Source: Roseospira visakhapatnamensis (GTDB lineage: Bacteria > Pseudomonadota > Alphaproteobacteria > Rhodospirillales > Rhodospirillaceae). Taken from it: a DNA stretch of 64,000 nucleotides. Under the pieces are notes generated by a model. That model ran no database searches. It saw nothing but the letters and a program-made list of their open reading frames with translations, and was not told the origin of the DNA. Made by a program: the position numbers and the translations under genes. Numbering within the stretch: the first letter of the stretch is position 1; each line of letters starts with the position of its first letter. Where the stretch lies: positions 1-64,000 of the forward strand of contig NZ_JACIGK010000024.1 in NCBI RefSeq assembly GCF_014197915.1, given 5' to 3'. Positions 31,889 through 34,249 of the stretch are shown one piece after another.

Positions 31889-32073
31889 GCCACCGCGCCA
31901 CCGTCATCAAACATCACCGGCTCGCGCGGACGAGCGCAAGGGGACGGCGTCTCATCCCGCCGCCGGTGTACACAACCGGATGGTGCCCCCGCGCCATCCG
32001 TCGGTGGTATACGCCCCGACATCGGGCACATACACAACTTTTTTATATAAAAATTCATTTATGCGTGCCCTGG

Positions 32074-32102
32074 TTTACAAAACGCGTTCGTTCCGCTAGC
32101 AT
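32074..32102 (+). promoter_or_regulatory. sigma-70-like promoter of the RiPP locus
   Basis: TTTACA (32074-32079) and TAGCAT (32097-32102) are separated by exactly 17 bp. Upstream lies an A+T-rich tract (about 32037-32060, TTTTTTATATAAAAATTC) that could act as an UP element. The precursor start codon is 132 bp further on. This is one of the few low-G+C stretches in the window. Confidence 0.55.
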
Positions 32103-32234
32103 AACATTGGACTCGGGGGGGGTCCGAAACCTCGACCACCCTTGAGCCGGAGAGGACCGGAGGTCCGGCCATCGTCGCGGCGCCGCCCTCTTCCATCGGC
32201 CCCTGGGCCATCGCCCCGCTCGAGGAGCATCACC

Positions 32235-32438
32235 ATGCCGAGCAGAGACATGCCTGATCTGTCACACCTGTCCGGTCGCGATATGGAAAAGGTCGCCGAA
32301 GCCATCGGCGCCGGCCCGATCCGCGCCCTGGTGCTCAACAAGGACGCCATCGCCGCCCTGGCCGTGGAGGACGTCAACAAGCTGGCCGAACTGGCCGCCG
32401 CGTCCCGGGCCCACTGCGGCGGCTTCGGCTGCGGCTGA
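32235..32438 (+). CDS. candidate RiPP precursor peptide (C-terminal CGGFGCG)
   Basis: A 67-residue peptide with a strong ribosome-binding site (GAGGAG, seven bases before ATG 32235). Residues 10-58 form an Ala/Leu-rich, probably helical leader (LSGRDMEKVAEAIGAGPIRA and VNKLAELAAAS are its parts). The end, SRAHCGGFGCG, has C61 and C66 in a Gly/Phe context: a short core with two cysteines. The next gene on the strand is a radical SAM/SPASM maturase, and a hairpin lies between the two. From these facts I infer a ribosomally made peptide modified at its C-terminus, perhaps by thioether or carbon-carbon cross-links. I recognise no named precursor family. No export or protease gene is adjacent. The frame is also open upstream to 32142, but that part is low complexity and lacks a ribosome-binding site. 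Confidence 0.7.
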   Translation: MPSRDMPDLSHLSGRDMEKVAEAIGAGPIRALVLNKDAIAALAVEDVNKLAELAAASRAHCGGFGCG

Positions 32439-32456
32439 GGTCGACCCGGTCCTTGC

Positions 32457-32490
32457 GGGAGGGCGTGATCCCGGGCTCACGCCCTCTCCC
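32457..32490 (+). terminator. attenuator-like hairpin between precursor and maturase
   Basis: GGGAGGGCGTGA pairs with TCACGCCCTCTCCC (one 2-base bulge) around an 8-base loop, starting 19 bp after the precursor stop. No T-tract follows, so partial termination or 3'-end protection of a short precursor mRNA is more likely than full termination. The remaining 240 bp before the maturase contain no further small gene that I can support. Confidence 0.5.
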
Positions 32491-32731
32491 GGTCCGTCCC
32501 CCTGCATGGCGGCGCCGGCGGTCTCGACAACCGTCTCCCCGGGCCCCTCGCGTCCTCCCGCCACGGCGCCCCCCGGGCGAAAATCCTTTTGACGGCTCCG
32601 CGCCGAAAGACCACCCTTGGATCAGATCACGATCCACGACATCCATCGCGTCACGGGCATCGCCGCATCGCGCCGCCGCCCACCGCCGTCGCGGTGCCGC
32701 TGGCCCGGTCGCCGTTCCAAGCGAGGTCATC

Positions 32732-34249
32732 ATGTCGGACTGGACCACGCATGCGGAGCACGCCCCCGCGTGCCTCCCCTCCTGCGGATCCGGGCGCTTC
32801 ACGGTGGTCACCGGAGAAACCCGGTCATACCTCTTCCTGCCGGAGCTCTATTCCCTCTGCCAGGCCCCGGACGCGGTGTTCGAGGCCCTATCGCCGTTCG
32901 AGTCGGGGCGCTTCGCCGCCAACCTCCCGGGACTCAAGCCCGGCGAGCTGGCGGCCCGCGCGACCATGCGCGACCTGATCGCCGAACGCCGCCACGACAC
33001 CCCGGACCTCGTGGACGGGGCGGCCACCGGCGCGTCCGCCGACCCCGGGACCACCGACGGCATCACCGATCTGGTCCTGAACGTCAGCCAGACCTGCAAC
33101 CTCGCCTGCGCCTACTGCTACGCCGACGCCCTGAACAAGACCAACACCCGCATGAGCCCGGAGACGGCCGAGGCGGCCATCGACCGCGCCCTGTCGCTGT
33201 CCCGCGCCGGCCTGCACAGCGTCAAGTTCCTGGGCGGCGAACCCACGCTGGCCTTCGACACCATCCGCCACGCCGTGGCCCACGTCGAACGGCGCGGCCG
33301 GGCCATGGGCCGCCCGGCGCCGGCCTTCGTGGTGGTCACCAACGGCACCAGGGTCACCGACGCCATGATCGCCTTCTTCCGCGCGCATGACGTCTATGTG
33401 CTGGTCAGCCTGGACGGCCCCGCCGGCATCCACGATACCCTGCGGCCCCGGGCCGGCGGTCAGGGATCCCACGACGCGGCCTCGCGCACCGTCACCCGCA
33501 TGGTCGCCGCCGGCGTCGATGTCGCCGTCGAGGGCGTCTACACCAAGGCCCACGCCGACCGGGGCCTGTCGGTCGCGGACATGGCCCGCCACTACCGGGA
33601 CCTGGGCATCACGGAGATGCAGATCTCGCTGGCCCTGGGCACCTGGCACGGCCAGCACTGCCCGGACGACCTGGCGGCGATCGCCGACGACTTCGCCCGC
33701 CTGGCCCGGGACAGCGTGCGGTCCCTGCGCACGACCCGGCCGTTCCTGCTGCGCGGCATCCACTTCGTGCTGGACGGCCTGGTGACGCGCGAGGTGCGCG
33801 CCCATGCCTGCGGCGCCGGCCGCACCTTCATGGCGGTCAACGCCGACGGCACCGCCTATCCCTGCTACCTGCTGGAGTCGGAGGAGACGCGCTACGGCCC
33901 GGTCGGCGACGACTGGGACGGCGCGCGCCACGCGCGGATCGCGGCGCGCTTCCAGGCCAACGGCAAGGCCCATCATCCGCAGTGCCAGCAGTGCTGGGCG
34001 CGCGAACTCTGCCACACCTGCCTGGGCGCGCGCTTCCTGTCGGACCCGCGCATCGACAAGCCGCCGGACTGGTTCTGCGCGGTCCAGAAGACGGCCATGT
34101 CGGCGGCGCTGGGGGCGTTCGCCGACGCCGTCGCCGACGACGCGACCCGGCCGCTGTTCCTGCGCAACCTGCGGCGCGTCATCGAACCCCGCCGGCCGAC
34201 CCGGATCTCCGGCCCGCCGACGCTGCCGGCGCCGGTGGCCGCCGAGTAG
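32732..34249 (+). CDS. radical SAM/SPASM peptide maturase
   Basis: A 505-residue radical SAM enzyme. The SAM-binding cluster motif CNLACAYCYAD gives C122, C126 and C129, and GGEPTLAF follows as the SAM-contact GGE. The C-terminal SPASM region has C360, C378, C418, C421, C427, C430 and C449, enough ligands for two auxiliary Fe-S clusters. This arrangement is found in enzymes that cross-link or otherwise modify ribosomal peptides (sactipeptide, ranthipeptide, PqqE and mycofactocin types) and in anaerobic sulfatase maturases. The first 110 residues (SCGSGRFTVVTGETRSYLFL, PELYSLCQAPDAVFEALSPF) resemble the N-terminal region of peptide maturases and may recognise the leader. Start ATG 32732 follows GCGAGG. 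It is the only gene after the putative precursor, so that peptide is the likely substrate. The chemistry is unknown. Confidence 0.85.
   Translation: MSDWTTHAEHAPACLPSCGSGRFTVVTGETRSYLFLPELYSLCQAPDAVFEALSPFESGRFAANLPGLKPGELAARATMRDLIAERRHDTPDLVDGAATGASADPGTTDGITDLVLNVSQTCNLACAYCYADALNKTNTRMSPETAEAAIDRALSLSRAGLHSVKFLGGEPTLAFDTIRHAVAHVERRGRAMGRPAPAFVVVTNGTRVTDAMIAFFRAHDVYVLVSLDGPAGIHDTLRPRAGGQGSHDAASRTVTRMVAAGVDVAVEGVYTKAHADRGLSVADMARHYRDLGITEMQISLALGTWHGQHCPDDLAAIADDFARLARDSVRSLRTTRPFLLRGIHFVLDGLVTREVRAHACGAGRTFMAVNADGTAYPCYLLESEETRYGPVGDDWDGARHARIAARFQANGKAHHPQCQQCWARELCHTCLGARFLSDPRIDKPPDWFCAVQKTAMSAALGAFADAVADDATRPLFLRNLRRVIEPRRPTRISGPPTLPAPVAAE

Follow-up and report, generated by a model that had tools for sequence, protein, structure and literature searches.

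A candidate two-gene radical S-adenosylmethionine system for a modified peptide in Roseospira visakhapatnamensis

The peptide gene and the enzyme gene

We analyzed a pair of forward-strand genes in a 64,000-nucleotide stretch of DNA from Roseospira visakhapatnamensis (the window, meaning that whole stretch), one encoding a small peptide with a Cys- and Gly-rich end and the other a radical S-adenosylmethionine (SAM) enzyme with a SPASM domain. An earlier note, made from the sequence alone, had proposed that the two belong to a system for a ribosomally synthesized and post-translationally modified peptide (RiPP), and had described a 67-residue peptide ending in CGGFGCG, with a ribosome-binding site, and a 505-residue enzyme. 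Both genes were found as described. The peptide gene (32235 to 32438, + strand) is an open reading frame (ORF) that runs from the ATG at 32235 to the TGA at 32436-32438 and encodes 67 amino acids with the tail HCGGFGCG. The ribosome-binding site, GAGGAG (32222 to 32227, + strand), lies 7 nt ahead of the ATG. The GC content of the frame at the three codon positions (0.72/0.49/0.87) is similar to that of the enzyme gene (0.70/0.54/0.95), and the peptide has relatives in other genomes (see below). Cys61 and Cys66 are its only cysteines. Among the window's 325 ORFs that encode 60 or more amino acids, only two, this frame included, have at least two Cys and at least three Gly in their last eight residues. 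Comparison with related peptides suggests that residues 1-53 (32235 to 32393, + strand), which contain the motifs PDLSHLS and EDVNK, form a leader, and the cysteine positions point to residues 54-67 (AAASRAHCGGFGCG; 32394 to 32435, + strand), the only cysteine-bearing part, as the core.

The enzyme gene (+ strand) runs from the ATG at 32732 to the stop at 34249. In Pfam, the product matched Radical_SAM at 59.7 bits, above the cut-off, and SPASM at 22.1 bits, barely passing the cut-off of 21.5. The radical SAM cluster motif CX3CX2C is formed by C122, C126 and C129 (33095 to 33118, + strand). Seven SPASM cysteines (C360, C378, C418, C421, C427, C430 and C449; 33809 to 34078, + strand), with the pattern CX2CX5CX2C at residues 418-430, are invariant across the four aligned enzymes of the clade described below. 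The enzyme thus has both the CX3CX2C motif and the SPASM domain of radical SAM RiPP systems. An AlphaFold model made from 17 sequences (mean pLDDT 71.5, pTM 0.76) predicted the radical SAM barrel confidently, with residues 1-20 and 42-107 below 50 pLDDT. The nearest solved chain by sequence was 5wgg (E 7e-27). We take this chain to be CteB; its structure record reads Radical SAM domain protein.

The enzyme matched 78 NCBIfam models at E ≤10, and each of the best 25 of these 78, which were examined against curated cut-offs, scored below its cut-off. The top four were the maturases PapB of ranthipeptides (NF047865, 179.3 bits against a cut-off of 340), nif11-type (TIGR04064, 152.3 against 518.7), QhpD (TIGR03906, 150.4 against 453) and SCIFF (TIGR03974, 149.3 against 425). 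Models for cyclophane maturases reached 61-71 bits, compared to 149-179 for PapB, QhpD and SCIFF. The earlier note had named a good match to sulfatase maturases as a finding that would speak against its proposal; the anaerobic sulfatase maturase model (TIGR03942) gave 96.3 bits against a cut-off of 349.45. PHROGs returned only general radical SAM models for the enzyme, and PADLOC only weak viperin-type matches. For the peptide, no Pfam or NCBIfam model, the nif11 leader included, scored above its cut-off, and neither PHROGs nor PADLOC gave a match. The peptide is therefore without a match to a named family in the libraries searched, in line with the earlier note, which had called the system a candidate undescribed one. 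Among the papers listed by searches of an open-licence library, which lacks most subscription literature, none described such a pair in its title or at the start of its abstract.

A sigma-70-like promoter, TTTACA-17-TAGCAT (32074 to 32102, + strand), is predicted from a consensus match only (1 found, 0.1 expected in shuffles), downstream of an A/T-rich stretch at about 32040-32072. Its first base, 32074, is where the interval given in the earlier note begins. The same scan found no such site at the loci of the three relatives with related peptides (genomes G039, G812 and G713). A 12-bp hairpin without a T-run lies between the genes (32457 to 32488, + strand; z -1.9, with 9 of 200 shuffles equally stable) and is perhaps a partial terminator or mRNA stabilizer. 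The G812 hairpin at the equivalent place is stronger (z -5.9, 0 of 200 shuffles as stable). Neither the whole intergenic region nor the 5' leader of the transcript folded better than shuffles, and Rfam gave nothing near a gathering score. Judged by eye, the flanking genes are housekeeping genes, with purL to the left and an aldehyde dehydrogenase gene in convergent orientation to the right, and we saw no transporter or protease gene adjoining the pair, in agreement with the earlier note.

Related enzymes and their neighboring small genes

Using the window enzyme as query, we found matches in 30 of 73 genomes of the family (E 0.001), at least 22 of 317 of the order (1e-20), and, in evenly drawn samples, at least 7 of 385 of the class and at least 11 of 398 of the phylum (both 1e-25). 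The last three counts are lower bounds because at most three or four candidates were scored per genome, and the window's own genome is counted in every total. The majority of the matches are QhpD-like, as judged by flanking genes (by eye) and tree position. The window enzyme is separate from these enzymes, which form their own clade (100/100) and have other flanking genes. It groups with the enzyme of G039, a genome of its own family, with those of G713 and G812, which belong to other classes of the phylum, and with one on plasmid pMpar-2 of Methylocystis parvus OBBP. This five-member clade was supported at 100/99 in a 62-row tree, at 100/97 in 48 rows (14 long or duplicate rows dropped) and at 100/98 in 28 chosen rows, where the freyrasin-type maturase of Methylocystis iwaonis falls outside it. 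PapB was the top NCBIfam model for all five clade enzymes. We considered CX2CX5CX2C as a signature unique to the clade and rejected it: a regular expression found it in 5/5 clade enzymes and 0/46 other enzymes from genomes and plasmids, yet also in 9/57 enzymes from viral contigs. AhbD carries it as well (PMC10452713).

Some QhpD-like enzymes (L094:159-5148, L095, L043, L053 and L038) form a separate clade, supported at 100/99 in the 62-row tree and 85/84 in the 48-row tree. Its L094 enzyme adjoins a gene annotated as tryptophan 7-halogenase and two genes of unknown product; the locus presumably resembles a LodA/GoxA-type quinone protein cluster.

The gene pair is patchy and scattered among a few distantly related bacteria. 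Searches with the enzyme and with a profile of two peptides (window and G039) found it in two of the 317 genomes searched for the order, those of the window and G039, and in one of six genomes of the genus. The other five had neither a match to the two-peptide profile nor a clade enzyme, although three of them gave weaker radical SAM matches, the best at E 2.5e-17. G032, G033, G035 and G036 each carry the left and the right flank on separate contigs, and only the left flank was clearly found in G034 (88% complete, 750 contigs). The enzyme was present in one of four genomes of the G713 family and in one of 61 sampled from the G812 family. A four-enzyme profile matched 5 of 48 genomes of the G713 order (G713, G735, G781, G857 and G850); the G735 and G781 enzymes fall in another clade of the 62-row tree, from which G857 and G850 were left out. 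One scan of genome contigs found only two distant relatives. Among viral contigs, neither the window enzyme alone nor the peptide found a relative; the four-enzyme alignment recovered at least 78 loci of general radical SAM enzymes, in which a regular expression found no peptide of the window kind. The window enzyme pairs with that of G713 instead of that of G039, of its own family, which, if the join is right, suggests horizontal transfer.

Beside four of the five clade enzymes is a related small gene whose product ends in a Gly/Cys tail, upstream in the window, G039 and G812 and downstream in G713. Thus, most clade members have an adjacent peptide with a C-terminal core, as in radical SAM RiPP systems, and the earlier note's concern that homologs might never neighbor a similar small frame does not apply in the close clade. 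The G039 frame (89 or 78 codons, tail GGCGVLSGGCC) is directly ahead of its enzyme gene. It shares PD(L/I)SHLS with the window peptide, at residue 7 in both when the internal ATG of G039 is used. In this genome precursor and maturase are in one reading frame, split only by TGA CCG ahead of the GTG start (L055:9716-9722). The G812 frame (73 codons from its ATG, tail GNCGNGCAG) lies 64 to 88 nt upstream of its enzyme gene, depending on the start, and shares EDVNK with the window. The G713 frame (62 codons, tail NFCCSGVG) lies 69 nt downstream of its enzyme gene. In all four peptides (G812 from its ATG), every cysteine is within the last nine residues. At G812, a gene for ShlB/FhaC-type outer-membrane secretion (Pfam) was seen downstream of the maturase gene on the same strand (L128:244-1806).

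Several comparisons indicate that these peptides are related. In a leave-one-out test, a profile from three peptides was used to score the fourth, and all four outscored each of 1,000 shuffles of themselves and each of 4,664 background small frames. When the window peptide was compared with 4,600 small frames from about 150 loci fetched by the enzyme, G039 ranked first, G812 third and G713 17th. Shuffles of the six pairs gave p values of 0.002 to 0.094 for whole peptides and 0.002 to 0.35 for leaders alone. The two-peptide profile matched 7 of 317 genomes of the order at E 0.05, with only the window and G039 below 0.01, and a four-row profile gave a single strong match per genome in all four, plus a further, weak one in G812 (E 0.0018) that falls within a 590-codon frame. 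The window peptide alone matched 87 of the 317 at E ≤0.5, none but the window above 19.8 bits, and these matches were taken as chance, as were those from plasmids (E ≥0.9 only among the best 20 of 129 matches). As to the earlier note's concern that the peptide frame might not be conserved in relatives, three further genomes have related frames, and two of these genomes belong to other classes.

We compared adjacency in 108 distinct enzymes readable in the loci (5 in the clade, 103 others), counting same-strand small frames within 400 nt that have at least two Cys, all in the last 14 residues, and a minimum number of Gly there. With at least three Gly, such a frame adjoins 3/5 clade and 2/103 other enzymes (Fisher p 0.0005). 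With at least two Gly, the counts are 5/5 and 4/103 (Fisher p 1e-6); the frame of G857 satisfies only this looser rule. A stricter initial rule selected 3 of the 108 enzymes, two of them in the clade.

Other candidate pairs were seen in the same loci. A 38-amino-acid frame with the tail AGGCCTGPMCPTDCSH lies immediately ahead of a radical SAM/SPASM gene in G219 (L040:1081-2670) and makes a candidate RiPP pair, and a 62-amino-acid frame with the tail CCAPCPSYTTVPCSC lies ahead of another such gene in G015 (L016:949-2688). In G735 (L119:264-2066) and G781 (L122:1070-2643), two related radical SAM/SPASM genes that share a CMHWC motif are each followed by a small gene; by eye, the two small products are possibly alike. 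On the M. iwaonis plasmid pSS37A-Re-2 (L217:3055-4450), a radical SAM gene is followed by an annotated freyrasin family ranthipeptide with repeated Cys and Asp in its tail (CDTCDLCDKCDTLDWC), which makes the locus an alphaproteobacterial relative of a Paenibacillus system.

Proposed chemistry and its alternatives

Both genes, the enzyme domains, the clade, the recurrent gene pair and the related peptides are direct results. As their best explanation we favor a two-gene radical SAM RiPP system, which we consider likely. The peptide and enzyme are very probably precursor and maturase, and here the reading of the earlier note gains support from the clade, the adjoining related peptides and the leave-one-out profiles. 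The idea that the enzyme acts on a larger protein, as QhpD and sulfatase maturases do, with the small gene as an accessory or chance neighbor, draws on the approximately 30% identity to QhpD-like enzymes but is very improbable given the low QhpD and sulfatase maturase scores, the relatedness of the peptides, the persistence of the pair despite the flipped gene order in G713, and the lack of an amine dehydrogenase subunit or sulfatase among seven neighbor proteins of G812, G713 and G039 (Pfam) or the window neighbors (by eye).

Several points weigh against the two-gene reading. That the maturase modifies the peptide is a prediction from the genes. The four peptides were initially chosen by eye for their tails, and the adjacency rule was devised after they were known. 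Tail spacings vary (CX4C, CX3C, CX6CC, CC), leaving no common core motif. Without the last 12 residues, the leave-one-out scores were reached by 1 (window), 11 (G812), 1 (G039) and 72 (G713) of 1,000 shuffles and by 0, 4, 0 and 10 of the 4,664 background frames, respectively, so the relationship of G713 rests partly on its tail. The pairwise p value for G039 and G713 was 0.09, and G039 was missed at E 0.5 when only the window peptide was used to search the order. On the M. parvus plasmid, the four-row profile found nothing, and the frame ahead of the enzyme gene (tail DGDCFYGSRESELC), which satisfies the looser adjacency rule, has no recognizable leader. This, together with the TniB/TniQ-type transposition genes just upstream, indicates that the M. 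parvus precursor may have been lost. The clade branches are long, and the tree program warned that the join of the window with G713 is possibly false.

The N-terminal 110 residues of the enzyme (32732 to 33061, + strand) raise a further difficulty. A RiPP recognition element (RRE) for leader binding is usual, though not universal, among radical SAM RiPP systems. The enzymes of G039, G812 and M. parvus lack this part, so that three of five clade members start at the radical SAM domain. A profile of the N-termini of 12 related, mostly QhpD-like enzymes matched the chains of 5wgg (E 0.0033) and TbiB1 (E 0.0057), the latter presumably an RRE protein. Window residues 1-113 aligned in register with that profile, though not significantly: the hhalign probability was 0.4%, and in a profile comparison 72 of 1,000 shuffles scored equally high. 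AlphaFold placed a beta-hairpin and then helices here at low confidence. An RRE in the window enzyme is thus an unproven candidate. According to PMC8326336, CteB has such an element at its N-terminus, PqqE is served in trans by the element PqqD, and for many radical SAM RiPP enzymes the leader is reportedly not required.

In the two-gene system that we favor, the upstream promoter would give one transcript with the precursor first and the maturase after the hairpin, which might lower downstream expression. By analogy with the family, the maturase would bind the leader, SAM would be reduced and cleaved at the C122/C126/C129 cluster, and a hydrogen would be taken from a residue of the Gly-rich tail. 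The sulfur of a core cysteine would then join that carbon, while SPASM clusters ligated by C360-C449 would carry electrons. The outcome would be a small product cross-linked at its C-terminus, with leader removal and export, if any, by genes elsewhere. For a number of RiPPs, the gene for the leader protease lies away from the cluster (PMC10885120), and so the missing local protease is no objection. We predict, with somewhat less assurance than for the system as a whole, that the product carries a thioether; PapB, QhpD and SCIFF enzymes make thioethers (PMC8172795, PMC8326336). No Asp, Glu or Thr lies within eight residues of the window cysteines or in the last 12 residues, the nearest carboxylate being Glu52, nine ahead of Cys61. 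Because the core is without side-chain acceptors, a backbone carbon of Gly or Phe would be the likeliest acceptor, and a sactionine-like alpha-carbon link is our tentative prediction. Known sactipeptide acceptors include Phe and Gly (PMC8326336), and the Cys31-Gly34 ring of streptosactin indicates that Gly is usable (PMC8172795).

The product could instead be a ranthipeptide, with thioethers on beta or gamma carbons like those formed by PapB, SCIFF maturases and the NxxcA enzyme, a reading that overlaps the one above in all but the acceptor carbon. The rank of PapB throughout the clade is in its favor, as is the tolerance of PapB for Cys-acceptor spacings of 0-6 (PMC9413430). By eye, Asp or Asn is three ahead of a Cys in the G812, G039 and G713 tails, the offset of Cys23-Asn20 in NxxcA (PMC8326336). 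PapB, however, requires an Asp or Glu carboxylate as acceptor (PMC8172795, PMC9413430). Because the cysteines of the window peptide lack a nearby Asp, Glu or Thr and have Arg and Gly in the positions three ahead, PapB-type Cys-X3-Asp chemistry does not fit it. Taken with the PapB score of little more than half its cut-off and the placement of the M. iwaonis maturase outside the clade, this makes a ranthipeptide unlikely.

Less likely still is a modification that involves no thioether: epimerization, a redox-active residue, or a cyclophane or carbon-carbon link at His60 or Phe64. The cysteines would then remain available to bind metal or to take part in later steps. Radical SAM RiPP enzymes perform such modifications, and His, Phe and Cys cluster in the window core. 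The aromatic residues are not conserved, however, with none in the G812 and G039 tails, and the cyclophane models scored far below those for PapB, QhpD and SCIFF. Epimerization and carbon-carbon bond formation by these enzymes are described in PMC8326336.

We also put forward, as a doubtful extension of the two-gene reading, a separate, minimal RiPP family. Its single SPASM enzyme would make tiny rings on a Gly/Cys tail nearly free of side chains (CGGFGCG), mainly with Gly alpha-carbons as acceptors, and would recognize the leader without an RRE of its own. Leader recognition without an RRE is proposed because three of the five enzymes start at the radical SAM domain and the G039 genes are in one frame split by a TGA. 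A ring-closed Cys/Gly tail could make a metal-binding or redox-active, cofactor-like product; the patchy distribution mildly disfavors a role as a core cofactor. If true, this would be a small, easily expressed family with a window core that lacks the usual acceptor side chains and could reveal which carbons are open to attack by a SPASM enzyme, and relatives with and without the N-terminal extension would permit a direct test of the need for an RRE.

Comparison with known systems

The M. parvus enzyme gene has TniQ/TniB transposition genes on one side and IS66 genes on the other (L211:11283-15946), with methanobactin-related genes about 10 kb away on pMpar-2. Among characterized systems, the freyrasin type (PapA/PapB) resembles the window pair in having a small precursor beside a radical SAM/SPASM maturase and in supplying the top NCBIfam model for the clade. 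It differs in that Cys-X3-Asp/Glu is absent from all four clade precursors, the enzyme score is below the cut-off, and the only such maturase placed in the tree, that of M. iwaonis, is outside the clade. Streptosactin (GggA/GggB) has sactionine rings, one of them Cys31-Gly34 (PMC8172795), and GggB was the third-best model for the G812 (108 bits) and M. parvus (99 bits) enzymes. For the window enzyme, however, the GggB model gave 83.7 bits against a cut-off of 650, and the streptosactin cluster includes a protease (PMC8172795), whereas none was seen beside the window pair. The SCIFF systems (CteA/CteB, ScfA/ScfB) include what we take to be the nearest solved structure to the window enzyme, 5wgg. 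The window peptide has two cysteines with no Thr nearby, in contrast to six cysteines in 45 residues for SCIFF, and the SCIFF maturase score is far below the cut-off. QhpD, the quinohemoprotein amine dehydrogenase maturase, has approximately 30% identity to the window enzyme over the radical SAM/SPASM part, but QhpD-like enzymes form their own clade with other flanking genes and have CX3C at the fourth SPASM cysteine, where the window clade has CX2C.

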